Below are positions 1,125 through 27,746 of a stretch of DNA of 64,000 nucleotides, one piece after another. Origin of the DNA: Thermaerobacter subterraneus DSM 13965. GTDB taxonomy: Bacteria > Bacillota > Sulfobacillia > Thermaerobacterales > Thermaerobacteraceae. Position 1 is the first letter of the stretch. Each line of letters starts with the position of its first letter. A program made the position numbers and the translations under genes. The notes below the pieces were generated by a model, which saw only the letters and a program-made list of their open reading frames with translations, was not told where the DNA came from and searched no databases. The DNA lies in NCBI RefSeq assembly GCF_000183545.2, contig NZ_JH976536.1, positions 283,672 through 347,671 on the forward strand, in the 5' to 3' direction.

Positions 1125-2573
1125 TCACCTCACCTCCCCTCGGCCGGGACGAACCGGCGGCCGGCGGCCCGCCTCCCCGGCACCCGGCTCGCCGGAGCCC
1201 CACCCGCCTGGGGAGGCCGCCAGCCGGGCTTCCTCCTCGCTCCCCCTGCCTGCCGGGGCGGGCCCCCCGGCCGGGACCGCGGGACCGGGCCACGGGCCCG
1301 GCCCCGCGGTGTCCTGACCGCCGGCCGGCCCCGCCCGGCCGCGCAGCCGCCACACGAAGGCCAGCACTTCCGCCACGGCCACGTAGAAGGCAGCGGGGAT
1401 CTCGCGCCCCACCTCCACCGCCCGGTAGAGGGCCCGGGCCAGGGCCGGTTCCTCCATCACGGGCACGCCGTGCTGCTCGGCCAGGGCCCGGATGCGCAGG
1501 GCCAGGAAGTCCACCCCCTTGGCCACAACGACCGGCGCCCCCATGCGGGCCGGGTCGTAGCGCAGGGCCACGGCCACGTGGGTCGGGTTGGTCACCACCA
1601 CGTCGGCCCGGGGTACTTCCTGGAGCATGCGGCGGCGGGCCAGGTGCCGCTGCCGCTGGCGGATCCGCTGGCGCAGCACCGGGTCGCCTTCGGCTTCCTT
1701 CTGGTCCTGCTTCCACTCCTGGACCGTCATCCGCAGGGACTGCTGGTGCTCCCACCACTGGTAGGCGTAATCAGCCAGGGCCACCACCAGGTAGGCCAGG
1801 GCCCCTCGCCAGAGCAACCCCTGCAGGGACCGGCCCGCCAGGCCCAGCATCGCCGGCAGCGGCGCTCCCGTGGCCGTGATCAGCTGCATCCCGGCACCCA
1901 GCAAGGCGGGTCCCAGGGCGGCGGCCATCACCGCCAGCTTGACCGGCGCCTTCAGCAGCTCCACCAGGGCGCGGCGGGACACCAGCCGCTGCAGGCCGGC
2001 CAGGGGGTTCACCCGCTCCCAGCGGGGAGCGGCCAGACCCGGTTGAAACAGCCCCCCTGCCTGGACGAACCCGGCCGCCGCCGCGACCACCCAGCCCGCC
2101 AGGGCCAGGGGGCCGGCGGCGGCCAGGGTTCCCAGCAGCACCACCCGCCCCAGATCCGCCGCCTGGGCCACCGTCCAGTCCGCCGGCAGCGGGGCCGGGG
2201 ATGGCGCCCACAGCCGCCGCGCCAGCCCCGCCACCTGCCGGGCGGCCAGGGGCACCAGCGTGCCGGCCAGGGCCGCCAGCGCCAGCAGCACCAGGGCTGC
2301 CGGCAGGTCCGCGCTGCGGGCCACCTGGCCCCGGCGGCGGGCCTGCCTGAGCCGCCGGGGGGACGGGGGCAGCACCCGCTCGCCGGCAAAGAGCTGGAGC
2401 TGGATCCTTCGGAGGGGGGCCCCTGCCCCGGCGGCTGCCCCTCGGGCTGGCCAGGCGGTCCCGCCGCTCTCCCGGCCGGCCCGCCCGGCCGCCCTGGGAT
2501 CGAGGCGGGCCGCCGCGGAAACACCGGCCGGGACCGCCGGGCCCGCCGGGCGCACGAGGGCAGGCGGGGTCAT
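1125..2573 (-). CDS. flhB: FlhB, flagellar export specificity switch protein
   Basis: Membrane component of the export gate that autocleaves to switch substrates from rod/hook to filament. The autocleavage motif NPTH is present at residues 329-332, followed by the conserved cytoplasmic domain (VAKGVDFLALRIRALA). Four hydrophobic helices precede it. At 482 residues it is longer than the usual 350-380: about 55 Arg/Ala/Gly-rich residues lie before the normal N-terminus (QLFAGERV, then SPRRLRQARRRGQVARS), and a Gly/Pro-rich tail of about 65 residues follows. The ATG overlaps the fliR stop as ATGA and has GGAGG ten bases upstream, so the extension is probably genuine. The tail is unlikely to be needed for the switch. 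Confidence 0.95.
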   Translation of the reverse strand: MTPPALVRPAGPAVPAGVSAAARLDPRAAGRAGRESGGTAWPARGAAAGAGAPLRRIQLQLFAGERVLPPSPRRLRQARRRGQVARSADLPAALVLLALAALAGTLVPLAARQVAGLARRLWAPSPAPLPADWTVAQAADLGRVVLLGTLAAAGPLALAGWVVAAAAGFVQAGGLFQPGLAAPRWERVNPLAGLQRLVSRRALVELLKAPVKLAVMAAALGPALLGAGMQLITATGAPLPAMLGLAGRSLQGLLWRGALAYLVVALADYAYQWWEHQQSLRMTVQEWKQDQKEAEGDPVLRQRIRQRQRHLARRRMLQEVPRADVVVTNPTHVAVALRYDPARMGAPVVVAKGVDFLALRIRALAEQHGVPVMEEPALARALYRAVEVGREIPAAFYVAVAEVLAFVWRLRGRAGPAGGQDTAGPGPWPGPAVPAGGPAPAGRGSEEEARLAASPGGWGSGEPGAGEAGRRPPVRPGRGEVR

Positions 2574-3343
2574 GGGCCCATCGCCTCCAGCAGCCGGGCC
2601 AGGAACTCGCCCAGAGGCCGGGCCAGGCCGGCCAGGGCTCCGGCCAGCGCCGGCAGGGCGGCCAGCAGGGCGACCAGGGCCACGGCCACCTGCACCGGCA
2701 GGCCCGTGATGAACACGTTGAGCTGGGGCACCGCCCGGGACACCAGGCCCAGCGCCACCATCACGGCCACCAGCACGGCCAGGACGGGGAGGCTCAACAG
2801 GAGGCCGGTGGCGAACATCCAGCCCGCCAGGTCGAGCAGCACCGGGGCACCGCCGGCCAGGCCGGCTCCCCCCGGTGGCAGGTGGCGGTAGCTGTCAGCC
2901 AGAGCCCGCAGGATCAGGTGGTGGCCGTCGGTGGCCAGCAGCAGAACCCACATGACCAGGTAGAGAAAGTGCCCCAGGACGGGCATGGACTGGCTCGAGA
3001 CGGGATCGATGACCCCGCTCAGGCCGAAGCCCGCCGACAGGTCGAGCAGCTGGCCCGCCAGCTGGACGGCGGCGAAGACCAGGGCGGTGACCAGGCCCAG
3101 GGCAAGCCCCGCGGCCACCTCGGCCAGCAGGGCGGCCCCGTAACCCAGGGCCGTGGCGGGCGGCCGGGCGGGCGGCATCACCGGGTATACCACCAGGGCC
3201 AGAAGCACCGCCAGCAGCGCCCGCGCAGGCGCCGGCACCAGGCCCCCGCCGAAGGCCGGCGAGGCGACCACCAGGCCGCTGGTCCGGCCCAGGCAGAGCA
3301 GGAACCGGTTGAGTTCTGTGGTGGCGATGGCCGCCAGGTCCAC
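2570..3343 (-). CDS. fliR: FliR, flagellar export gate membrane protein
   Basis: Polytopic membrane protein that assembles with FliP and FliQ into the export channel at the flagellar base. The 257-residue product shows six or so hydrophobic helices and FliR hallmarks: GRTSGLVVASPAF near the N-terminus, QLAGQLLDLSAGFGLSGVIDP in the middle, and LNVFITGLPVQ towards the C-terminus. I place the start at the GTG at 3343, because it is preceded by a near-perfect GGAGGTGAT ribosome site and gives VDLAAIATTELNRF, the normal family start. An upstream in-frame start at 3409 would add 22 low-complexity residues. The TGA overlaps the flhB ATG. Confidence 0.95.
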   Translation of the reverse strand: MDLAAIATTELNRFLLCLGRTSGLVVASPAFGGGLVPAPARALLAVLLALVVYPVMPPARPPATALGYGAALLAEVAAGLALGLVTALVFAAVQLAGQLLDLSAGFGLSGVIDPVSSQSMPVLGHFLYLVMWVLLLATDGHHLILRALADSYRHLPPGGAGLAGGAPVLLDLAGWMFATGLLLSLPVLAVLVAVMVALGLVSRAVPQLNVFITGLPVQVAVALVALLAALPALAGALAGLARPLGEFLARLLEAMGP

Positions 3344-3457
3344 CGGATCACCTCCGCCGCCGGTCACCGGCCCCGGCTGCTGGGCCGGGGCCGGCCGGGC
3401 CGCCGCCACGGCCGCGGGGCACGGCCCCTCCCCCGCATCCCCGGTCCCCGGCCGGGA

Positions 3458-3730
3458 TCATCCCAGGACGCCGGGGATGGATTCGTACAGCTGCACCGTG
3501 TAGCGCACCAGGGTCGCCAGCATCCACGGCCCGAAGAGCAGGAGGGCCGCCGCTGCCGCCAGGATCTTGGGAACAAAGACCAGGGTCTGCTCCGTCACCT
3601 GGGTGGCCGCCTGCAGAATGCTGATCGCCACCCCGACGGCCACCGTCAGGAGGAGCACGGGGGCGGCCACCAGAAGGCCCGTCCACAGGGCTTCCCGCCC
3701 CACCGTAAGCACCATGGCGTCGGTCATCAT
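3458..3730 (-). CDS. fliQ: FliQ, flagellar export gate membrane protein
   Basis: Small (90-residue) export-gate subunit that packs around FliP/FliR. Two hydrophobic helices are visible (LLVAAPVLLLTVAVGVAIS and ILAAAAALLLFGPWML). The conserved linking stretch ILQAATQVTEQTLVFVPK between them is diagnostic of FliQ. The ATG at 3730 is preceded by GGGGGAGAGGG. It lies between fliP and fliR, in the order of the Bacillus fla/che operon, with about 110 bases of non-coding GC-rich sequence separating it from fliP. Confidence 0.96.
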   Translation of the reverse strand: MMTDAMVLTVGREALWTGLLVAAPVLLLTVAVGVAISILQAATQVTEQTLVFVPKILAAAAALLLFGPWMLATLVRYTVQLYESIPGVLG

Positions 3731-3839
3731 CCCTCTCCCCCTCGTCTACCGGACCCGGCCGGCGGCTCCCCCGGCCCCTCTCCGGCCCAACCGCCGGCCC
3801 GGGGGACACGGGCCGTGGGCCCGGTCTCCAGCCCGGCCC

Positions 3840-4523
3840 CTAGCCCGGCATGCCGAAGGACGCCAGCAGGGACCGGACCACCAGGTTCCAGCCGTCGACC
3901 AGCACGAACAGCAGGATCTTGAACGGCAGCGACACCAGCATGGGCGGAACCATCAACATGCCCATGGACATCAGGGTGCTGGCCACCACCATGTCGATGA
4001 CCAGAAAGGGTACGTAAAGGATGAAACCGATCTGGAAGGCCGTCTTGAGCTCGCTGATGGCAAAGGCAGGAATCAGCACGTAGGTCGGGACCTGGTCGGG
4101 CGACGCCACCGGCCCCCGCCCCGACAGTTCCAGGAACAGGGCCAAGTCCCGTTCCCGGGTATAGCGGAACATGAACTCCCGCACCGGTTCCTGCGCCCGC
4201 TGCAGGGCCTCGACCTGGCCGATCCGGCCGTCCCGGTAGGGTATCCAGGCGTCCTGGTAGACCTGCTGCCAGACCGGTGCCATGACGAACACGGTCAGGA
4301 ACAGGGCCAGCCCCACCAGCACCTGGTTGGGCGGGGCCTGCTGGGTACCCAGGGCGCCGCGCAGGAAGGACAGGGCGACCACGATGCGGGTGAAGCCCGT
4401 CATCATCACCAGCAGCGCCGGCGCCAGGGACAGCACGGTGAGCAGAAGCAGGATCTGCAGGGCGGCACCCAGGCCTTCCGGGCCCGTGGCCGGCTGGAGG
4501 GTGACGTTCACCTGGGGCATCAT
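3840..4523 (-). CDS. fliP: FliP, flagellar export gate membrane protein
   Basis: Core subunit of the flagellar export pore. The 227-residue product contains the family blocks MTGFTRIVVALSFLRGALGTQ, PPNQVLVGLALFLT, IPAFAISELKTAFQIGF and the C-terminal DMVVASTLMSMGM...LPFKILLFVLVDGW. As in B. subtilis there is no cleavable signal peptide; the N-terminus is a short soluble stretch before the first helix. The ATG overlaps the fliO stop codon (ATGA), implying translational coupling. Confidence 0.97.
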   Translation of the reverse strand: MMPQVNVTLQPATGPEGLGAALQILLLLTVLSLAPALLVMMTGFTRIVVALSFLRGALGTQQAPPNQVLVGLALFLTVFVMAPVWQQVYQDAWIPYRDGRIGQVEALQRAQEPVREFMFRYTRERDLALFLELSGRGPVASPDQVPTYVLIPAFAISELKTAFQIGFILYVPFLVIDMVVASTLMSMGMLMVPPMLVSLPFKILLFVLVDGWNLVVRSLLASFGMPG

Positions 4524-4780
4524 GCCGGCTCATCCTCCCGGGCCGCCCGCCGGTCCAGCAGGCTCACGCCCTGGTCGGTCACCCCGAGCAGGAGCTCGTC
4601 CCCGTGCCAGCGCACCACGCACAGGACCCGCCGGCCGCCCAGGGACACCACGGACCGGATTTCCAGATCACGCCCGCCCTGGGCAGGCTTCAACCACCGG
4701 ACCAGGGCCCGGCTCCCCCACGCGGCCGCTGCGATCACCAGCAGCGAAGCAACGAGAAACTGGATCAGGCCTGTCCACAA
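4520..4780 (-). CDS. fliO: FliO/FliZ-type flagellar export assembly protein (short)
   Basis: An 86-residue protein with one N-terminal transmembrane helix (LIQFLVASLLVIAAAAWGS) followed by a small basic beta-rich domain (RSVVSLGGRRVLCVVRWHGDELLLGV), the pattern of FliO, which assists assembly of FliP. The position immediately before fliP supports this. The start is inferred as TTG at 4780, with GGAGG four bases upstream; no ATG or GTG lies near. It overlaps the 3' end of the CheY-like gene by 16 bases. The family is poorly conserved, so the assignment rests on topology and position. Confidence 0.8.
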   Translation of the reverse strand: MWTGLIQFLVASLLVIAAAAWGSRALVRWLKPAQGGRDLEIRSVVSLGGRRVLCVVRWHGDELLLGVTDQGVSLLDRRAAREDEPA

Positions 4781-5373
4781 GGTTCCTCCGTCCCCCCGGT
4801 CTCCCCCTGGACCGGCCCCGCCTCCAGGCAGGCCCGGCCCGGCGACTCCCCGCCCGGCGACGTTGCGGCGCCCCGGCCGGCGCGGGGATCCAGCCCTCCC
4901 GCCGGCCCCCGGGCCGCCAGGGCGCGCCGGACCGCCGCCTGCAGGCGGGCAGGCTGCCACGGTTTGGCCACCACGTCGGCCGCTCCCGCCTGCCGGTAGG
5001 CCACCACGGCCGCCCGGGTGGTCAGGGCCGTGCACACCACCAGGGTGGCGCCGGGATTCATCGCCTTCAGGACAGCCAGCCAGCGGCCCGCGTCCCGGCC
5101 CCACGGAGCCGGTTCGGCCAGGACCACCCGGGCCCGCTGGAGCTGGCGGCGGATCACGGGCTCGGGTTCGGATCCGGAAAGCTCCAGCACCACGCACCCC
5201 AGGGGAGTCAGTTGCGCCCGGACCTGGCGCCGGGCAAAGGCGGCAGGGTCGATGACCACCACCGCGGGCGCCGGTCCCCCCCGAACGCCCTCCCCCGGTA
5301 CCCCCTCAACGGAGGCGGCGGAGGCGCTCGCCGGGGCTGACGATGTCGGTGATGCGGATGCCGAAGTTCTCAT
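4765..5373 (-). CDS. CheY-like degenerate receiver protein
   Basis: Occupies the cheY position of the fla operon (after fliN/fliY, before fliO) and aligns over a receiver fold: VVVIDPAAFARRQV at residues 38-51, LVVCTALT at 111-118 and VVAKPWQ at 134-140. In CheY the acidic pair is DD, the phosphoacceptor is Asp, and a Thr/Ser and a Lys complete the site. Here the pair is D42-P43, and the phosphoacceptor is A86 or E87 depending on alignment; T115 and K137 remain. Phosphorylation therefore looks impossible by the usual mechanism. About 35 residues before the domain and 50 after are low complexity. Alternative GTG starts at 5262/5259 sit directly before the domain; the listed start overlaps fliN by 68 bases. 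Confidence 0.72.
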   Translation of the reverse strand: MRTSASASPTSSAPASASAASVEGVPGEGVRGGPAPAVVVIDPAAFARRQVRAQLTPLGCVVLELSGSEPEPVIRRQLQRARVVLAEPAPWGRDAGRWLAVLKAMNPGATLVVCTALTTRAAVVAYRQAGAADVVAKPWQPARLQAAVRRALAARGPAGGLDPRAGRGAATSPGGESPGRACLEAGPVQGETGGTEEPCGQA

Positions 5374-6115
5374 CGATCACCACCACCTCGCCCCGGGCGA
5401 TTAGGCGGCCGTTCACCAGCAGGTCCACCGGCTCGCCCGCCAGCCGGTCCAGTTCCACCACCGTGCCCGGCGCCATCTCCAGCAGTTCCCGCACCGTGCG
5501 CTGGGTCTGGCCCAGCTCCACCGTCAGTTGCAGGGGGACATCCAGCAGGAGATCCAAGGTTCCCCGGCCCGCGGCGGGCCCGGCGCCGCCTTCCCCTTCC
5601 GGCGGCCAGCCCTCGCCGGCCTCGGGACCGCCGTGCAGGGGGTAGAACCCGGCCGCCGGGCGGCTACCGGCCCCCGCGATGCCCGCCGGGGCCGGCTCGG
5701 CTGCGGCCGCCGCCTGGGCCGGGCCGCTGCCCCGGCCGGCACCGGTCGGTCCCTCCGCGCCCGGCCCGCCCGCCGGGCTGGCCTCCTCCTGGAAGGCGGC
5801 AGGCGGGGTCGCGGCCGACAGAGCGGAGGGGCGCCTGCCCGTGGCTTCCCCGGCTCCGGCGGAGGGGCCCGTCGCGACGGGGGAGGCCTCCTGGGGCCCG
5901 GCGGACCCCGATGCCCCGCCGGCGGATCCGGCAGCTGCGGGGGGAGGGCCGTCGGATCCGGCAGCACCTCCGGCCGCGCCTCCCGCACCGGCCGGGGCGC
6001 CCCGGGCCGGGTCGTCCCCGCCGGCGGGGCCGGCCCCGCTCCCCTCCTCGGCCAGGCTGCGCAACAGGGCATCAATTTCCTCCTGCGACAGCATCTCCCA
6101 CTCGCCCGTGCCCAT
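5306..6115 (-). CDS. fliN: FliN/FliY-type flagellar motor switch protein with N-terminal EIDALL motif
   Basis: C-ring subunit of the motor switch. The C-terminal about 80 residues are a SpoA/FliN domain (LLLDVPLQLTVELGQTQ, PVDLLVNGRLIARGEVVVID, FGIRITDIVSP). The N-terminus carries LSQEEIDALL at residues 9-18, the CheY-P-binding motif usual in FliM and also seen in FliY. Between them lie about 140 Gly/Ala/Pro-rich residues with no recognisable CheC-type phosphatase domain, so this is not a full FliY. The ATG at 6115 has GAGGAGG eight bases upstream and overlaps fliM by 44 bases. It is odd that this motif is absent from the neighbouring FliM. Confidence 0.9.
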   Translation of the reverse strand: MGTGEWEMLSQEEIDALLRSLAEEGSGAGPAGGDDPARGAPAGAGGAAGGAAGSDGPPPAAAGSAGGASGSAGPQEASPVATGPSAGAGEATGRRPSALSAATPPAAFQEEASPAGGPGAEGPTGAGRGSGPAQAAAAAEPAPAGIAGAGSRPAAGFYPLHGGPEAGEGWPPEGEGGAGPAAGRGTLDLLLDVPLQLTVELGQTQRTVRELLEMAPGTVVELDRLAGEPVDLLVNGRLIARGEVVVIDENFGIRITDIVSPGERLRRLR

Positions 6116-7037
6116 GGCCGCGTTCCTCCTCTACCCGTTCCACCACCTGCACCGCCAGCCGTTGCCCGTGCTGGCCGGGAAGACCCCGGAACTTGAGCCG
6201 GCCGCCCACCAGGATGTCGACCAGGCTGCCGGCCCGGGTATCCAGCGGCAGCACGTGCCCCGGCGCCAGGTCCAGCAGCTGCCGGACCGTCAGCTGGGCC
6301 CGCCCCAGGACCACCTGCACCGGCAGCGGCACCTGGCGCAGGCCTTCTTCCCACTGCTCCCGGGACCGCGCCTGGCTGCGGGTCTCCCGGGCGTAGTACT
6401 GGTGCACGGCCAGCCGCGGCAGCAGGGGCTCCAGCAGGGGATAAGGCAAGCAGATCCGCCAGGCTCCCTCCTGCTGGCCGAACCGGACCGAGAGCACCAC
6501 CCGCACGACGATCTCGTTGGGCGCCTGGACCTGGACGAACAGGGGGTTGGCGGCCACCGTGACCAGCTCGCCCTGTACCTGGACGAGCTGGCTCCACCCC
6601 TCGGCGACGGATCCCAGCAGCCCCTGCAGGATTGCCCGCATGACCACCGTCTCGATCTCCGTCAGGCCGCGGCCGGTGGCCGCCCCCGTGCCCGGACCGC
6701 CGAACAGGCGGTCCACCATGGGAAAGGCGATGGAGGGCTCCACGTCCATGACGGCGCTGCTCTCCAGGGGCGGCAGGTTGAAGACCGCCAGCACCGTAGG
6801 GTTGGAGAGGCCGGTGATGAACTCACCGTAGGTCGTCTCCTCCACCTCCAGCACCGCCACCTCGACCACCGTGCGCAGCTGGCCCGACAAGAAGCCCGTC
6901 GCCAGCCGGGCCACGTTCTCGTGGACCATGGCCAGGGTGCGCAACTGCTCCTTGGAGAACTTGTCCGGGCGCCGGAAGTCGTAGAGCCGGACCACCGGAG
7001 CCCTCCGGACGCCCTTGCGGCGCACGCCCTGGTTCAA
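6072..7037 (-). CDS. fliM: FliM, flagellar motor switch protein lacking the N-terminal CheY-binding motif
   Basis: Middle layer of the C-ring, bridging FliG and FliN. The 321-residue product contains RLYDFRRPDKFSKEQLRTL at residues 17-35, the GGPGT segment of the CheC-like middle domain, and a C-terminal SpoA domain (PVQVVLGRAQLTVRQLLDL). The usual leader of about 40 residues with LSQxEIDALL is missing: the start is TTG at 7037 with GGAGGAGGG nine bases upstream, and only 36 bases separate it from the fliL stop, so no hidden exon-like extension is possible. The motif is found instead on FliN. Confidence 0.95.
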   Translation of the reverse strand: MNQGVRRKGVRRAPVVRLYDFRRPDKFSKEQLRTLAMVHENVARLATGFLSGQLRTVVEVAVLEVEETTYGEFITGLSNPTVLAVFNLPPLESSAVMDVEPSIAFPMVDRLFGGPGTGAATGRGLTEIETVVMRAILQGLLGSVAEGWSQLVQVQGELVTVAANPLFVQVQAPNEIVVRVVLSVRFGQQEGAWRICLPYPLLEPLLPRLAVHQYYARETRSQARSREQWEEGLRQVPLPVQVVLGRAQLTVRQLLDLAPGHVLPLDTRAGSLVDILVGGRLKFRGLPGQHGQRLAVQVVERVEEERGHGHGRVGDAVAGGN

Positions 7038-7073
7038 GCAGCAGCCCTCCTCCCGCCCGTGCTCTGCAGGCCC

Positions 7074-7568
7074 CTACTGGACGATCAGGTCCGTGATCAG
7101 CACGTCCTGAATGGGCAACCCGCCCCCGGGGGCATGTCCACCGGTTCCAGATCCGGCAGGAAGGCCGGACCCCGTCCCCGGGTTACCCTGGCCGTGGCCG
7201 GAGCCGCCGCCCTGTCCCGCCAGGACGGCCCGCAGCGCCTGCTGCAGCCGGTCCATGCCGCCGGCTCCGGCCAGGTCGGCCGCGGTCATCCCGCGCAGGA
7301 CCCGGTAGACCTGATGGCGCACCTCGGCCATGCCGCCGTGCTCCAGCGCCTTGGCCGCCTCCTCCCCTGCCACCCGGAGGACCAGGGCCACCTGGACCAC
7401 CCGACCATCCCGCAGGTTGGTGGTAAAGGGCTCCAGGGCCACGTCCACCGGCTCCGGCGGGGGCGGGGGCTCCCCCGCCCCCGCCCGGGTGGCGGCCCAC
7501 CAGGTGCGCGCCGCGGCGGCCACCGCCGTCACCACCACGATCAACAGCAACCGGACTTTGCCTTTCAC
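7074..7568 (-). CDS. fliL: FliL, flagellar basal-body-associated membrane protein
   Basis: Single-pass membrane protein that surrounds the stator and influences motor function. The 164-residue product has an N-terminal transmembrane helix (VRLLLIVVVTAVAAAA) and a periplasm-side domain with the FliL pattern LEPFTTNLRDGRVVQVALVL. It ends in a Gly-rich stretch and a final ILITDLIVQ-like beta strand. The GTG start overlaps the flbD stop (GTGA). Placement between flbD and fliM is as in Bacillus. Confidence 0.9.
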   Translation of the reverse strand: MKGKVRLLLIVVVTAVAAAARTWWAATRAGAGEPPPPPEPVDVALEPFTTNLRDGRVVQVALVLRVAGEEAAKALEHGGMAEVRHQVYRVLRGMTAADLAGAGGMDRLQQALRAVLAGQGGGSGHGQGNPGTGSGLPAGSGTGGHAPGGGLPIQDVLITDLIVQ

Positions 7569-7843
7569 CTGGGGTCACCGTCCTCGTGCCCGGTGGACCC
7601 GGCGGCCAGGGCGGGCGAGGCCGGGGCGCAGGACGCCCCTTCTCCGCCCGGTCCCCCGGCCGGCGCCAGGATGCGCCGCCGGTAGGCCACCACCCGCTCG
7701 ATCACCCGGTCCACGGGTTCCCGCACCACCAGGCGCCGGCCCGTGGTCAGGGTGATCACCGTATCGGGCGTGGCCTCGAGGGTCTCGATCAGCTCCGCGT
7801 TGACCACCACTTCCCGGCCGTCCAGGCGGGTCACCGGCACCAC
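7565..7843 (-). CDS. flbD: FlbD/SwrD family flagellar protein
   Basis: Small conserved protein found between flgE and fliL in Firmicutes; in B. subtilis SwrD increases motor power. The first 60 residues match the family closely (VTRLDGREVVVNAELIETLE, TPDTVITLTTGRRLVVRE, VIERVVAYRR). The remaining 30 residues are a non-conserved Gly/Ala-rich tail. The GTG start at 7843 follows GGGAGGGAG. It is translationally coupled to fliL by a four-base overlap. Confidence 0.9.
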   Translation of the reverse strand: MVPVTRLDGREVVVNAELIETLEATPDTVITLTTGRRLVVREPVDRVIERVVAYRRRILAPAGGPGGEGASCAPASPALAAGSTGHEDGDPR

Positions 7844-7926
7844 CGGGGCTCCCTCCCGTCACCTGCGGCCGCTGGGGCCCGGTCCCCGCCGCGGCAGCCG
7901 GCGGGCGGGGCTCTCAGCCGGCCGCC

Positions 7927-17587: not shown

Positions 17588-17965
17588 TCACACGGGCATG
17601 CGCATGATCTCCTGGTAGGCCTCGAGCGCCTTGTTGCGCAGCTGCACCGCCAGTTCGATGGCCAGCCGCGCTTTCTCGCTGGCCACCATGACCTGGGACA
17701 GGTCCTGGACCTGGCCCGTCACCAGGCGCCGGGCCATGGCGTCGGCCTCGCCGGCCGCGCCCTCCAGCTGCTGGAGGGCGCGGGCCAGTTCCTGCAGGAA
17801 GCTGGGTCCCACGCCACCGGGCCCGGTGGAACCGGCCGCCGGGCCGTCGCCCGCGGCCGCAGCCGCCGCCCTTCCGGACGGTCCGAAGGTCCCGCCCAGA
17901 CCGGTCGCCGGGGAAGAACCGGGCCAGGCGACGTTGCCGGGGGCTTGGACACCCCATGGGTTCAT
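17588..17965 (-). CDS. fliE: FliE, flagellar hook-basal body adaptor
   Basis: Links the MS ring to the proximal rod. The conserved C-terminal two thirds is helical and family-typical (SFLQELARALQQLEGAAGEA, VQDLSQVMVASEKARLAIEL, VQLRNKALEAYQEIMRMPV). The first about 50 residues are Gly/Ala-rich. At 125 residues it is slightly longer than the usual 100-110. The ATG at 17965 has GGAGG eight bases upstream. It lies between flgC and fliF, as in other Firmicutes. Confidence 0.95.
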   Translation of the reverse strand: MNPWGVQAPGNVAWPGSSPATGLGGTFGPSGRAAAAAAGDGPAAGSTGPGGVGPSFLQELARALQQLEGAAGEADAMARRLVTGQVQDLSQVMVASEKARLAIELAVQLRNKALEAYQEIMRMPV

Positions 17966-18045
17966 GGCTCAGACCTCCTCCGTTGCAGCCGCAACGCTGC
18001 CGGGACCCTGGCGGTCCCAGGGGCATCCGGCAGCCGCAGGGCCGT

Positions 18046-18612
18046 TCAGCCGCGGCCAATGTCCAGCGCCCGCAGGGCCAGGGTGCGGGCCGCGGCGAAG
18101 ACCGCCACATTGGCCTCGTAGGCCCGGGTCGCCGCCAGCAGGTTGACCATCTCCGCCAGCGGGTCCACGTTGGGGTACGCCACGTAACCATCCGGGCCCG
18201 CGTCGGGATGGGCCGGGTCGTACACCAGCCGGGGCGGCGAGGGATCGCCGACCACGGCCGCCACCTGGACCCCGCCGGGGGCGGCTCCGGTCCCGCCGGG
18301 ACCCGCCGCGCCCGGACCGGCTACGGGCGGCACCGGCCCACCCGCTACGCCGGCCAGGGGGGAGCGTGCCCAGCCGGCTGCGGCACCCGCCGCCGGCACC
18401 GGCCCCGGCACCGCACCCCGTTCCCGCAGGATCCGGGCGAAGGGCGTCGCGCGTTCCTCGAAGACCGGCACCAGCCGGCGGTAGGGCCCGCCCTGGGGGG
18501 TACGGGTGGAGTCCACGTTGGCCAGGTTGCTGGCGATCAGGTCCAGGCGCAGCCGCTGGGCCGTCATGCCGCTGGCCGCGATGTCGAAGGTGCTGAACAT
18601 CCCGCCCGCCAC
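18046..18612 (-). CDS. flgC: FlgC, proximal rod protein
   Basis: Rod subunit. The N-terminal signature FDIAASGMTAQRLRLDLIAS-NLANVDST and the C-terminal helix PNVDPLAEMVNLLAATRAYE-ANVAVF bracket an expanded Gly/Ala/Pro-rich insert of about 40 residues. The total is 188 residues, against about 150 in Bacillus. The GTG at 18612 is nine bases after the GGAGG within the end of flgB; an ATG four codons further in gives a more conventional start. flgB ends only three bases before. Confidence 0.94.
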   Translation of the reverse strand: MAGGMFSTFDIAASGMTAQRLRLDLIASNLANVDSTRTPQGGPYRRLVPVFEERATPFARILRERGAVPGPVPAAGAAAGWARSPLAGVAGGPVPPVAGPGAAGPGGTGAAPGGVQVAAVVGDPSPPRLVYDPAHPDAGPDGYVAYPNVDPLAEMVNLLAATRAYEANVAVFAAARTLALRALDIGRG

Positions 18613-18615
18613 CGC

Positions 18616-19179
18616 TTACCGCCTCCCCTCGGCGATGACCGTGCGCAGCAGGGCGATGCGATCGGACAGCTGCCGCACCAGGGCCTGATAGTGCACGCCG
18701 TTTTCCGCCATCCGCGCCATCTCCGCGTCCAGGTCGACGTTGTTGCCGTCGTTGCGCAGGGAGGAACCGGTCTCCCGGTATACCGCTACCGCCGGATCTG
18801 CTGGTGCCCACCGGCCCGGCAGGTGGCCTGGGTGGGTGACGCCCAGGGACAGCCGGCCACCGGGTACGGCAGGCCCGACCGCCACCCCGCCCGCTCCGGC
18901 TGCCCCCGCGCCCCCGGCCCCGGTGGCTGGTGCGGCCGCCACGGCCGGTTCGGCCCCTCCGGTCCCGGCGGTGCCGGCGGCCCCGGCTGCCCACCCCGCG
19001 GCCTGGCCTCCCGCCGGCCCGCGACCGGCCAGCGCCGCCTCCAGAGCCCGGGCGAAGTCGAGATCATACCGCTTGTAGCCGGGCGTCTCGGCGTTGGCCA
19101 CGTTCTGGGCCAGCAGTCGCTGGCGGAGGGCCAGGACCTCCAGCCCGGCAGCCAGTTCATCGTTGACGCGCCCCCACAC
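18616..19179 (-). CDS. flgB: FlgB, proximal rod protein, first gene of the flagellar operon
   Basis: Rod subunit. The signature LALRQRLLAQNVANAETPGY is followed by KRYDLDFARALEAAL. A Gly/Ala-rich insert of about 70 residues comes next, then the C-terminal helix region AEMARMAENGVHYQALVRQL. At 187 residues it is longer than typical FlgB (about 130). The start GTG at 19179 is chosen because GGGAGGGG lies eight bases upstream; the open frame itself continues to 19425 through the riboswitch and terminator, which cannot be coding. Expression is probably controlled by the c-di-GMP riboswitch in its leader. Confidence 0.93.
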   Translation of the reverse strand: MWGRVNDELAAGLEVLALRQRLLAQNVANAETPGYKRYDLDFARALEAALAGRGPAGGQAAGWAAGAAGTAGTGGAEPAVAAAPATGAGGAGAAGAGGVAVGPAVPGGRLSLGVTHPGHLPGRWAPADPAVAVYRETGSSLRNDGNNVDLDAEMARMAENGVHYQALVRQLSDRIALLRTVIAEGRR

Positions 19180-19203
19180 GGGTCCATCCCCTCCCGCCGC
19201 TGG

Positions 19204-19243
19204 AAAAGAAAGCCGCCCGCGGCGCGCCAGGCACCACGGGCGG
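19204..19243 (-). terminator. Intrinsic terminator-like hairpin in the flagellar operon leader
   Basis: On the minus strand a ten-pair stem (CCGCCCGTGG with CCGCGGGCGG, one G-T wobble) with an 11-base loop is followed by CTTTCTTTT. It lies between the c-di-GMP aptamer and the flgB ribosome site. It is the likely expression platform: ligand binding would favour or disfavour this hairpin. Confidence 0.8.
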
Positions 19244-19279
19244 ACGAGAGGATTGCCAAGGGTCCACCGCGCGGCGTTC

Positions 19280-19372
19280 GGCAGTCCGGCCGTCATAGTC
19301 CCGTGCTGGCGGGACCTTAGACCCGTGACTTTGCGAACCTGCCTTTCGACAGGGGTGCCTTTGTCGCTGCCG
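19280..19372 (-). ncRNA. Cyclic di-GMP-I (GEMM) riboswitch aptamer upstream of flgB
   Basis: Read on the minus strand, the element shows every GEMM landmark. An outer P1 stem pairs CGGCAG with CTGCCG. A six-pair P2 stem (CCTGTC with GGCAGG) is capped by a GAAA tetraloop. The core is TTCGCAAAGTCACGGGTCTAA. A P3 stem pairs GTCCCG with CGGGAC. The tetraloop-receptor strand CTATGAC and the segment GGCCGGACTGCCG close the element. The G preceding CA in the first joining strand corresponds to G20 of the Vibrio Vc2 RNA, favouring c-di-GMP over cGAMP; this alignment is by eye. A terminator follows at 19204-19243 and flgB starts at 19179. GEMM control of flgB operons is known from Clostridioides difficile. 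Confidence 0.9.
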
Positions 19373-19514
19373 CGGGGGGTGGCCGCGCCCCGGCCTGTGC
19401 AACCGGGACAGAAACCGCGGCTCACCCCCGAAGCTTATTCAGTTGTAGCGGCTTTCCAGCCGGCACTGGTCGACATGATTCTGCACCGAACTGGTCATTC
19501 CTTCTATCCGCGAC

Positions 19515-19550
19515 AAAAAATTTGGGACCCGGGTCCTGGTTTTGGGTCCC
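19515..19550 (-). terminator. Intrinsic terminator after hslU
   Basis: On the minus strand GGGACCC, a 13-base loop and GGGTCCC are followed by AAATTTTTT. It lies about 165 bases after the hslU stop and before the riboswitch, separating the topA-hslU unit from the flagellar operon. The flagellar promoter should therefore lie between about 19510 and 19375; I could not identify convincing sigma-A or sigma-D boxes there. Confidence 0.8.
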
Positions 19551-19717
19551 TCTTGCGGCAGGGTGGGTTTTGCCAGCCAGGATCGCTTGCCCTGGCTCCT
19601 TCGCTTGCCCCCGGGGGGCGGCCGGTCAGGATTTCGCCCGCGCAGGCCGCCTGGGGCTCGCCGCCGGCTCCCCGGCCGGCCCCGGACTCCCGGCGCCGCC
19701 ACCAGGGGGCAGGGCCC

Positions 19718-21160
19718 TCAGAGGATGTACCGGCTCAGATCCTGATCCTGGAGGACTCCCTCCAGCCGCTGGCGGACGAACGCAGCATCCACCACCACCT
19801 TGCCCTGGAGGGCGTCCGGGGCGTCGAAGGCCACCGGCTCCAGCAGCCGTTCCAGCAGGGTGTGCAGGCGCCGGGCTCCGATGTTCTCCGCCTGCTGGTT
19901 GGCCCGGGCCGCCATGTCCGCCAGGGCCTCCACCGCGTCCGGGGTGAACTCCAGCTCCACCCCGTCGGTGGCCAGCAAGGCCTGGTACTGGCGCAGCAGG
20001 GCATTGTCCGGCTCGGTCAGGATGCGCTTGAAGTCGTCCCGGGTGAGGGGCTGCAGCTCCACCCGGATGGGGAACCGGCCCTGCAGCTCGGGGATCAGGT
20101 CCGAGGGCCTGGCGATGTGGAAGGCTCCCGCCGCGATGAAGAGGATGTGGTCCGTGCGCACCGGGCCGTGCCGGGTCATCACCGTGGAGCCCTCGACGAT
20201 GGGCAGGATGTCCCGCTGCACCCCTTCCCGGGAGACGTCGGGCCCGTGGCCCCGCTCCCGGCCGGCGATCTTGTCGATCTCGTCGATGAAGACGATGCCC
20301 GCCTGCTCCGTGCGCCGGATGGCCTCGGCCACCACCTGGTCCATGTCGATCAGCTTCTGGGCCTCTTCCTGGGCCAGCACCTCCCGGGCCTCCCGCACCG
20401 GCAGGCGGCGCCGGCGCTTGCGCCGGGGCAGCCAGTCCTTGAGCAGGTCCTGCACGTTCAGGGTGACCTCTTCCAGGCCCGGCCCGCCCAGGATGTCGAC
20501 CATGGGCGGCGCCTGGTCTTCCACCTCGATCTCGACCACCTGGTCCTCCAGCTGCCCGCTGCGCAGCCGCGCAGCCGCCTCCTGGCGGTGCCGGCGCCAG
20601 TCCTCCTCTTCCTCGGGCCGGGCGGGCTCGGCCGGACCCGGCATCCCGGCCCCCAGGGACCCCAGCAGCATCTCCCAGGGCGACCCGGCGCGCTGGGGGC
20701 GCCGCCGGGGCGGCGGAACCAGCACGTCCAGCAGGCGGTCGTCGGCCGCGGCCCGGGCCCGGTCCTCGACGGCGGCCACCCGCTCCGCCTTGACCATGCG
20801 GATGGCCGTCTCCAAGAGGTCCCGGATGATGGACTCCACGTCGCGGCCCACATAGCCCACTTCGGTGAACTTGGTCGCCTCGACCTTGATGAAGGGAGCT
20901 CCCGTCAGCCGGGCCAGCCGCCGGGCGATCTCCGTCTTGCCCACCCCGGTGGGGCCGATCATCAGGATGTTCTTCGGCGCCACCTCGTCCCGCAGGTGCG
21001 GCGGCAGCTGCTGCCGCCGCCAGCGGTTGCGCAGGGCGATGGCCACCGCCCGCTTGGCCTCCGCCTGGCCGACGATGTACCGGTCCAGCTCCGCCACGAT
21101 CTGGCGGGGGGTCAGCCGGTCGGGTTCCCACGCGGCGCCCTGGACGGCTCCCCGTTCCAC
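19718..21160 (-). CDS. hslU: HslU (ClpY), ATPase of the HslUV protease
   Basis: AAA+ unfoldase that feeds substrates into HslV. The N-terminus shows [20 protein letters not shown] and Walker A GPTGVGKT at residues 69-76. A long variable I domain is followed by Walker B ([10 protein letters not shown], residues 289-298) and sensor regions. The C-terminus ends SRYIL, the tail that inserts into HslV. At 480 residues it is close to Bacillus ClpY (467). The GTG start at 21160 is preceded by GGGGGAGGG. It is last in the topA-trmFO-xerC-hslV-hslU unit. Confidence 0.97.
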
Positions 21161-24470: not shown

Positions 24471-26603
24471 TCAACGCCTCCCCGCCCCGGCACCGGCGCC
24501 GGCGGTCTCGGCGGCCCCTTCCCGCTGATAGGTGCACTGGGGGTTGGCGCAGACCAGGCGCACCCCCTGGCGGGACCGCTTCTCCACCAGGAAGGTGCCG
24601 CACTCGGGGCAGGTTTCCGCCGTGGGCCGGTCCCAGGTGGTGAAGTCGCACTCCGGATAGTTGCTGCACCCGTAGAAGACCCGGCCCTTGCGGGACCGGC
24701 GCTGCACCATCTCCCCGCCGCAGCGCGGGCAGCGGGCGCCGGTCTTCTCCACCAGGGGCCGGGTATTGCGGCACTCGGGAAAGCCCGGGCAGGCCAGGAA
24801 GCGTCCGTAGCGCCCGTGCTTGATCACCATGCGCCGGCCGCACTTCTCGCAGATCTCGTCCGTCTCCTCCACGGGCAGGGCAACGCGCTGGATCTCCCTT
24901 TCCGCCCGGGCCAGGGTGGCGCTGAAGGGCTCGTAGAACTCCCGGACCACATCCTCCCATTCCCGCTGGCCCTCTTCGATGCGGTCCAGGTCGGCCTCCA
25001 TGCGGGCGGTGAACTCCACGTCCACGATGTCGGGAAAGTGCTCCTTCAGCAACGCGGTGACCACCCGGCCCAGCTCGGTGGGCCGGAAGCGCCGGTCTTC
25101 CTTCACCACGTAGCCCCGCTCCTGGATGGTTTCGATGATGGGCGCATAGGTGCTGGGCCGGCCGATGCCCTTTTCCTCCAGGGCCCGGACCAGCATGGCC
25201 TCGGTGTAGCGCGGGGGCGGCTGGGTGAAGTGCTGCTCCGGCCGCAGCTGCTTGAGCGCCAGGGCATCGCCCTCTGCAAGGTCGGGGAGCATGCCCTCCG
25301 CCTCGTCGCCCTCCCCTTCGCCCCCCTCGTCCCGGCCCTCCACGTAGAGCTTCATGAAGCCCGGGAACTTGACGGTCGAACCGGTCGCCCGGAAGCGATG
25401 GGGACCGGCTCCGATCTCCGCGGTGACGGTATCCAGCACCGCCGGGGCCATCTGGCTGGCGACGAACCGCTCCCAGATCAGCCGGTAGAGCTTGTACTGG
25501 TCGGGCGTCAGATCGTCCTTGATGGCGTCGGGTTCCCGGGCCACCGACGTGGGTCGGATGGCCTCATGGGCATCCTGGGCCTGTGCTGCCCGCCGCCCCG
25601 CCTGCTTGCGGGGCGCCGAGAACTCGGCGCCAAAGCGCGCGGCGATGTAGGCGGCCGCCTCGTCCAGGGCCTGGTCGGCGATGCGGGTCGAGTCCGTGCG
25701 GATGTAGGTCACCAGACCCACGGCGCCCTCGCCCCGCAGTTCGATCCCTTCGTACAGTTCCTGGGCGATGCGCATGGTGCGGCGCACGGTGAACCCCAGC
25801 TTGCGGGCCGCTTCCTGCTGCAGGGTCGAGGTGGTGAAAGGCGGCGCCGGGTTGCGTTTCCGTTCCTTGCGTTCGACCCCCAGGACGGAGAAGGGCCGCC
25901 CCTCCAGATCGGCCAGCAGGCGGTCGACGGCAGCCCGGTCGGGCAGTTCCTTCTTTCCCTCGGCGTCGCCGTAATAGCGGGCGGTGAAGGTCTCCCCGCC
26001 CGGCAGCCGCACCAGATCGGCCTCCAGGGTCCAGTACTCCTGGGGCGTGAAGGCCTCGATCTCTTCCTCCCGGTCGACGATGAGGCGCACGGCCACCGAC
26101 TGGACCCGGCCGGCGGAGAGGCCGCGCCGCACCTTCCGCCACAGCAGCGGGCTCAACTTGTAGCCCACCAGGCGGTCCAGCACCCGCCGCGCCTGCTGGG
26201 CGTCCACCAGGTTCTCGTCGATGGGGCGCGGCTCCTTCAGGGCGCGGCGCACCGCCTCCCGGGTGATCTCATGGAACACGATCCGGCACGGGGAGCTCTC
26301 GTCGATGTCAAGAAGCTGGCAGAGATGCCAGGAGATGGCCTCGCCTTCCCGGTCGGGGTCGGTGGCCAGGAGGACCCGGTCCACCTGGCGCGCCTGCTGC
26401 CGCAGTCGCTCGATGAGCTTGCCCTTGCCGCGGATGGTGATGTAGTGGGGCGTGAAGTGGTCGTCAATGTCCACCCCGAGCTGGCTCTTGGGAAGGTCCC
26501 GCACATGGCCCATGGAGGCCTCGACGGCATAGTCGCGCCCGACAAACTTCTTGATCGTCTTCGCCTTGGCCGGCGACTCGACGATGATCAGCGTCCTGGG
26601 CAA
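24471..26603 (-). CDS. topA: TopA, DNA topoisomerase I
   Basis: Type IA topoisomerase that relaxes negative supercoils. The Toprim domain begins at once ([16 protein letters not shown]) with [12 protein letters not shown]. The catalytic tyrosine is Y300 in [10 protein letters not shown]. Three C-terminal four-cysteine zinc fingers are seen (CEKCG...CPGFPEC; CPRCG...CSNYPEC; CPECG...CANPQC). The start is inferred as TTG at 26603 with GGAG ten bases upstream; the GTG at 26612 is also in frame but too near that site. The open frame runs on to 27620 as a shadow of dprA. A sigma-A promoter lies at 26641-26670. Confidence 0.97.
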
Positions 26604-26640
26604 TGGGATCACACTCCGGCGCCATGGCGCGTTGCAACTT

Positions 26641-26670
26641 AGTGTAGCACTGGCACGGGAGGGGCGGCAA
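26641..26670 (-). promoter_or_regulatory. Sigma-A-type promoter for topA operon
   Basis: On the minus strand TTGCCG (26670-26665), an 18-base spacer and TACACT (26646-26641) precede the topA start by about 40 bases. It probably drives topA-trmFO-xerC-hslV-hslU. Confidence 0.7.
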
Positions 26671-26698
26671 CGCGCAGTGGCATTTCCTGGTGACGCCT

Positions 26699-27613
26699 TC
26701 AGGACGAGCCGGCAGCCCCGGCCCAAGGCGAGTCCGGCCAGCCTTGTCCGGCCAGGACCGCCTTCACGTCCTCCAGCCCTGCCACCGGCGGTGCCCCCGC
26801 CCGCAACAGCTCCAGGATCCCCTGACCCTGGCGCCGCGTCACGGGACCCGGCACCGCCATCACCGCCCTGCCGGCATCGAGGGCCAGATCGGCGGTCACC
26901 AGAGCCCCGCTGCGCGGGGCGGCCTCCACCACCACCACGCCGTCGCACAGGCCGGCCAGGATGCGGTTTCGCTCGGGGAAGCGGAAGGCCTCCGCCGGCG
27001 TCCCCGGCGGGTACTCCGACACCAGCCAGCCCCGGGCCGCCACCTGGGCCGCCAGCGGGCGGTGCTCCTCGGGATAGACCCGGTCGGGCCCGTGGCCCAG
27101 GACGGCCACCGTCACCCCGCCGCCGGACAGGGCCCCCCGGTGGGCGGCGCCGTCGATGCCCACGGCCAGGCCCGACACCACCACCCAGCCCGCCGCCGCC
27201 ATGTCGGCGGCCAGCCGGAAGGCCACCTGGGTCCCGTACGCCGAGGCCTTGCGCGAACCCACCACGGCCACCCAGGGCACCGCCTGGGAGGGCAACCGCC
27301 CCCTGTAATAAAGGATGAGCGGCGGATCGGCCACCTCGCGCAGCCGCCGCGGGTAGGCGGGATCTTCCCAGCTCAGCCAGTGAACGCCCACGGCTCGCGC
27401 CCTTCCGGCCAGCACCGCGGGATCGGTGCGCCGGCGGGCCTCCAGGGCCCGCTCCAGCACGCCTGCCGGCGCGGCGCCCACCTCGCGCCAGGCGGAATCG
27501 GGGGCCTCCCAGGCCGGTACCGGGCCGCCCAGCGCTGCAGCGAGCTGCCGGGCTCGCTGCCGGCCGAGACCCGGCAGGGCGAGCAGGCCCATCCACGCGT
27601 GGGCAGGGTCCAC
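26699..27613 (-). CDS. dprA: DprA (Smf), DNA-processing protein for transformation
   Basis: Loads RecA on incoming single-stranded DNA during natural transformation. The extended Rossmann fold is clear: VAVVGSRKASAYGTQVAFRL, then WVVVSGLAVGIDGAAHRGAL, VAVLGHGPDRVYPEEH, SEYPPGTPAEAFRFPERNRI and ALVTADLALDAGRAVMAVPG. A short N-terminal SAM-like region (LLALPGLGRQRARQL) and a C-terminal winged-helix-like stretch are present. The GTG at 27613 has GAGGAGG eight bases upstream. The smf-topA neighbourhood is as in Bacillus. Confidence 0.96.
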   Translation of the reverse strand: MDPAHAWMGLLALPGLGRQRARQLAAALGGPVPAWEAPDSAWREVGAAPAGVLERALEARRRTDPAVLAGRARAVGVHWLSWEDPAYPRRLREVADPPLILYYRGRLPSQAVPWVAVVGSRKASAYGTQVAFRLAADMAAAGWVVVSGLAVGIDGAAHRGALSGGGVTVAVLGHGPDRVYPEEHRPLAAQVAARGWLVSEYPPGTPAEAFRFPERNRILAGLCDGVVVVEAAPRSGALVTADLALDAGRAVMAVPGPVTRRQGQGILELLRAGAPPVAGLEDVKAVLAGQGWPDSPWAGAAGSS

Positions 27614-27746
27614 GGGCCATTCCTCCTCGGGTTGGCGGATCGTGCCGGATTGGCGGATCTTTTCGGCCAGGGTGTCGTGGGACTTGTCCCCGCGGCCGGC
27701 CTGCGCCCCGGCGGCCTGCGCCCCGGCGCCGGTGCGTGCGTTCGGT

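Follow-up and report, generated by a model that had tools for sequence, protein, structure and literature searches.

The window, the 64,000-nt stretch of Thermaerobacter subterraneus DNA analysed here, carries on its minus strand a leader region of ~540 nt that extends from the hslU stop codon (19718) to the GTG start of flgB. Upstream of the leader lie trmFO, xerC, hslV and hslU, with topA placed at 24471-27620 from gene order alone. This is the position that Bacillus uses for codY, as the initial annotation had pointed out, and no match to CodY was found anywhere in the genome. On the downstream side, flgB gave two partial matches to the FlgB profile TIGR01396, each alone below the cut-off. 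The genes that follow were assigned with Pfam as flgC, fliE, fliF, fliG, fliH, fliI, fliK, flgD, flgE, flbD, fliL, fliM, fliN/Y, fliO, fliP, fliQ, fliR and flhB. Beyond the window the operon continues with flhA, flhF, a ParA-type flhG, a YcgR-like PilZ gene and a sigma factor gene with regions 2, 3 and 4 at the place expected for sigD; rpsB, tsf, pyrH, frr and uppS come after sigD. The proposed control of a whole operon of about 22 flagellar genes was right as to the target but low in its count, which rises to ~25 as the operon runs past the window. The PilZ gene (L088, 15275-16099, minus strand) encodes a YcgR-like c-di-GMP receptor inside the operon that the riboswitch controls, and c-di-GMP may thus act on flagella at two levels, through the riboswitch and through the PilZ receptor. 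The features of the leader and operon are listed in Table 1.

Table 1. Features of the flgB leader and operon in the window.
Feature	Position	Strand	Basis and remarks
Terminator-like palindrome after hslU, GGACCCGGGTCC then CAAATTTTTT	19515..19536	-	Sequence; kept across the genus
Sigma-H-type promoter, AGGA-N17-GAAT	19478..19502	-	Motif search; consensus PMC8510167; predicted TSS near 19470
Strand P, 5' strand of extended P1 (CCACCCCCCGCGGC)	19369..19382	-	Pairs with A; flank complementarity over 39 loci
c-di-GMP-I (GEMM-I) aptamer	19277..19369	-	RF01051, 73.6 bits, full length
Strand A, P1 3' strand and antiterminator half (CGCCGCGCGGTGGAC)	19262..19276	-	Folding
Strand T, terminator 5' arm and antiterminator half (GTCCGCCCGTGGTG)	19232..19245	-	A.T hairpin
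Intrinsic terminator hairpin and T-rich tail	19203..19243 (hairpin 19243-19213)	-	Terminator scan; about -28 kcal/mol
Strand H, terminator 3' arm (CCGCGGGCGG)	19213..19222	-	Terminator scan and folding
flgB Shine-Dalgarno, GGGAGGGG	19188..19195	-	Sequence
flgB, GTG start	18616..19179	-	FlgB profile TIGR01396 in two pieces; start from comparison with relatives
Operon remainder in window, flgC to flhB	1125..18612	-	Pfam

The only Rfam match in the whole window was the c-di-GMP-I (GEMM-I) aptamer upstream of flgB. It spans model positions 1-87 of RF01051 with an E value of 1.5e-12, and its score of 73.6 bits exceeds the gathering score of 35 bits. The alignment contains the CGCAAAG core, the GAAA-capped hairpin with its tetraloop receptor helix and the 3' GCCGAA, and the invariant columns agree with membership of the family. 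The aptamer is therefore a real c-di-GMP-I aptamer, for which chance is no reasonable explanation, and the family and the flgB position given in the initial annotation are confirmed. The G20 of Vc2 is a selectivity position in GEMM aptamers (PMC9262584). Its equivalent in the window, model position 11, is a G, which favours a preference for c-di-GMP. The genome also encodes ordinary GGDEF domains, in two genes. The GEMM-I family includes cGAMP members, and the pocket-adjacent internal loop reads ACC/(T or C)TC in the family of the window aptamer, unlike the AAA/GAC of most relatives. This loop may tune ligand affinity, but given the G at the selectivity position and the GGDEF genes, a preference for another dinucleotide such as cGAMP deserves hardly any weight. 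The window aptamer matches RF01051; for three relatives in the genus the best-scoring model is RF03167 (c-di-GMP-I-GGC).

The terminator scan of 19000-19800 returned three terminator-like sites, compared to 0.4 in shuffled sequences. One of them is the hairpin CCGCCCGTGGTGCCTGGCGCGCCGCGGGCGG, followed by the tail CTTTCTTTTC, in which the T-run is broken by a C. The hairpin begins 33 nt after the aptamer; its fold has 13 pairs and an energy of -28.1 kcal/mol (37 C). The flgB Shine-Dalgarno sequence lies downstream of the terminator and is followed by the GTG start. The order of aptamer, hairpin with T-run and flgB ribosome site had been described correctly from the sequence, although with a spacer of 37 bases and a hairpin of ten pairs.

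Folding of the leader suggests that four strands, P, A, T and H, compete for one another. P and A form the extended P1 that closes the aptamer (-20.8 kcal/mol at 37 C), and the complementarity of the two flanks is significant over 39 class loci (p 3e-6). The strand A, which is the 3' flank of P1, can alternatively pair with the terminator 5' arm T in an antiterminator hairpin of 14 bp (-24.6 kcal/mol at 37 C). In stepwise folding, P.A forms first and is displaced by A.T while T emerges. Once T is largely transcribed, the predicted probability of A.T in the ligand-free ensemble is 0.75-0.98 at 37 C and 0.67-0.95 at 65 C, with T.H at ~0, in ViennaRNA folding, which takes no account of ligand or tertiary contacts; the A.T probability was lower only during partial transcription of T. 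A.T is predicted to leave P2 and P3 intact, and would thus lower ligand affinity without abolishing the pocket. The aptamer's own 3' strand was also considered as the antiterminator and set aside, since its complementarity to the linker and terminator arm was non-significant (Fisher p 0.17 and 0.10).

This arrangement resembles a known OFF switch. In Cd1, the aptamer (P+A) and the terminator (T+H) coexist and the antiterminator consists of A and T, whereas in the ON switch pilM the A strand belongs to the terminator (PMC9262584, Landgraf et al.). The window shares the four-strand P/A/T/H logic of Cd1: the terminator hairpin lies wholly 3' of A, has no strand in common with the aptamer and can coexist with it, and in folding the antiterminator, in which the strand that closes the aptamer pairs with the terminator 5' arm, is dominant before H emerges. 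Unlike pilM, the terminator does not contain the A strand. Without ligand, A would pair with the emerging T, the terminator would be blocked and the operon transcribed. With c-di-GMP bound, the aptamer and extended P1 would keep A, and because this would free T for H, transcription would stop before flgB.

The class-wide comparison points in the same direction. GEMM riboswitches were found in 59 of the 61 genomes searched, counting that of the window, and comparison of GEMM matches with FlgB matches placed one directly before flgB in ~36 genomes of the class. At 33 class loci, prior to the emergence of H, the terminator 5' arm was predicted to be paired at 80% in the free state and at 48% in the bound one. 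The difference between free and bound pairing exceeded 0.2 in the OFF direction at 27 of these loci and in the reverse direction at one. Pairing of T to the aptamer or P1 3' strand averaged 0.55, compared to 0.31 for dinucleotide-shuffled T strands; the combined p values (Fisher 1.6e-7, Wilcoxon 6e-6) are too optimistic, as the 33 loci include close relatives. For the window alone, p was 0.02. The exact A.T helix is present in the window and in G001. For G002, G003 and G004, folding predicts other partners of the T arm, namely the aptamer body or 3' strand or the 5' flank.

The closest known system is the C. difficile flgB riboswitch (Cdi-1-3), also a GEMM-I aptamer with a terminator before a flgB operon that includes sigD, which acts as an OFF switch by premature termination (PMC6200980, PMC9262584, PMC11477304); there, termination caused by the GEMM has been demonstrated experimentally (PMC6200980). 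In C. difficile, however, flgB is transcribed from a SigA promoter, and its 496-nt leader contains a phase-variable invertible switch (PMC7438776). The window differs by its sigma-H-type promoter and by a P1 that is extended and GC-rich, and the genome has a second GEMM at flhO/flhP.

Collectively, these results suggest that the riboswitch is very probably a transcriptional OFF switch of the flgB flagellar operon. The OFF direction, which the initial annotation had itself only inferred, is now better supported by the Cd1-like layout, the predicted A.T hairpin, the class-wide trend and the analogy with C. difficile flgB; the anatomy gives it good support, by computation and analogy. An ON switch, in which the ligand prevents the terminator and c-di-GMP raises flagellar expression, has precedents among GEMM-I riboswitches in pilM and in C. 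difficile Cdi-1-1, whose output rises with c-di-GMP. For the window we consider it very unlikely: terminator and aptamer have no strand in common, a single class locus leans ON, and with the aptamer side held the sole competitor for T in the linker is GGCA/TGCC, at four pairs too short a helix for us to retain an ON mechanism via the linker. It is also unlikely, if slightly less so, that the leader acts mainly via translation, Rho or RNA stability, with the hairpin as a weak or constitutive attenuator. The interrupted T tail and the weak T tails of a few relatives would fit such a role, but the flgB Shine-Dalgarno sequence lies outside every predicted helix and a stable hairpin with a T-rich tail precedes flgB at nearly all class loci. 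In the preferred reading, termination at high c-di-GMP would also cut off flhA, flhF, flhG, the PilZ gene and sigD. Because sigD and its neighbours are included, later flagellar genes would fall too.

We then considered what drives the leader. A scan for sigma-70 promoters in the leader region found none. The motif AGGA-N17-GAAT is present directly after the terminator-like palindrome of hslU and is kept in the genus (with N18 in G002); transcription would most likely start from it, ~100 nt upstream of the aptamer. It has the form of sigma-H promoters, RNAGGAWWW / RNNGAATWW (PMC8510167), as known for Bacillus sigma-H (Spo0H), with two flanking consensus positions deviating in the window. Of 39 class loci, 21 have AGGA-N16-18-GAAT upstream of the leader, where shuffled sequences gave a mean of 0.6 and a maximum of 3. 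In the spacing histogram for these 39 loci, a spacing of exactly 17 accounts for 20 and no other spacing for more than 5. With up to one mismatch, AGGA-N17-GAAT was found at 30 of the 39 loci, compared to a null of 2.0 (maximum 7) and to 1-7 for other spacings. Genome-wide, AGGAW-N16-GAAT gave 37 matches and the reversed pattern 3. Three of the 37 sites are of interest, at flgB, at the second GEMM before flhO/flhP and at a GAF-GGDEF cyclase gene. The motif AGGA-N17-GAAT lies 154 nt upstream of the second GEMM (C1:2461525-2461549) and, as C1:2446290-2446314, just before the cyclase gene at C1:2446248, where it is kept in 4 of 4 genus members. The genome has a single strong sigH gene (381 bits).

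The second GEMM of the genome (L063 2340-2396, minus strand; C1:2461339-2461395) is 57 nt long with a shortened P3, and scores 46.8 bits; the genes on either side, identified by eye, are MreB/Mbl-like and flhO/flhP-like. This GEMM and the sigma-H-type promoter are additions to what had been annotated initially.

The motif could instead belong to another sigma factor or be a Spo0A site, a reading to which we give a lesser but appreciable probability. TGTCGAA, a word resembling a Spo0A box, is part of many copies. It is enriched, but it is contained in the fixed AGGA-N17-GAAT arrangement, whose strict distance of 17 nt to AGGA agrees better with the sigma-H consensus in the literature, and one strong sigH gene is present; TGTCGAA was therefore set aside as a Spo0A box. 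We infer sigma-H use and the TSS position, like the circuit built on them below, from sequence. Near-matches to the signature also occur in some class flgB leaders that have no GEMM and in the flgB regions of Thermoanaerobacter, Lutispora and Pelosinus, suggesting that this type of promoter may predate the riboswitch.

Further arrangements of GEMM riboswitches were seen in other genomes. In a wider scan of named genomes that used FlgC as the query, the 80 flgC loci covered many phyla and 10 of them had a GEMM, including those of Carboxydocella thermautotrophica and Dethiobacter. In two genomes beyond the ~36 above, G028 and G059, a GEMM lies 2.5 kb upstream of flgB and apparently heads a flhO-flhP-flgB arrangement, the layout of Symbiobacterium-like genomes (L074 4385-4495; L082 1389-1477). 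Tandem GEMM aptamers precede flgB in G007, G023 and a MAG labelled Symbiobacterium (L051 2011-2303; L079 1908-2159; L137 2172-2463), the MAG locus probably being the same as that of G007. At L187 2334-2507, the GEMM before flgB has an insertion of ~90 nt in P3 and a total length of 174 nt. Other class GEMMs stand, by eye, before genes for Flp-type pilin, TadE-like and ParM-like proteins (L009, L020, L022).

Among the papers searched, none was found that links GEMM riboswitches with Thermaerobacter or Symbiobacterium, and none, under the terms used, that joins sigma-H with the flgB operon. The B. subtilis fla/che operon has no known sigma-H dependence. The type of riboswitch is already known, as a GEMM-I OFF switch of flgB in C. 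difficile. What looks new, and what a specialist would not expect, is the coupling of a sigma-H-type promoter to a GEMM-flgB leader. We tentatively propose, at somewhat below even probability, that in this class the flagellar master operon depends on sigma-H, as does flhO/flhP here, that the leaders of both contain a c-di-GMP riboswitch, and that in the genus sigma-H also drives the GAF-GGDEF cyclase, making an incoherent feed-forward loop.

GEMM control of a flagellar operon is not peculiar to C. difficile, as it extends to ~36 genomes of this class and to other Bacillota such as Carboxydocella. If the proposed circuit is true, one sigma factor of stationary phase and sporulation entry would switch on flagella together with a later brake, the c-di-GMP signal being made by the GAF-GGDEF cyclase under sigma-H. 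The exact-spacing sigma-H signature ties swimming, sporulation entry and c-di-GMP into one testable circuit, by which this lineage would decide on flagellar synthesis in the transition phase.
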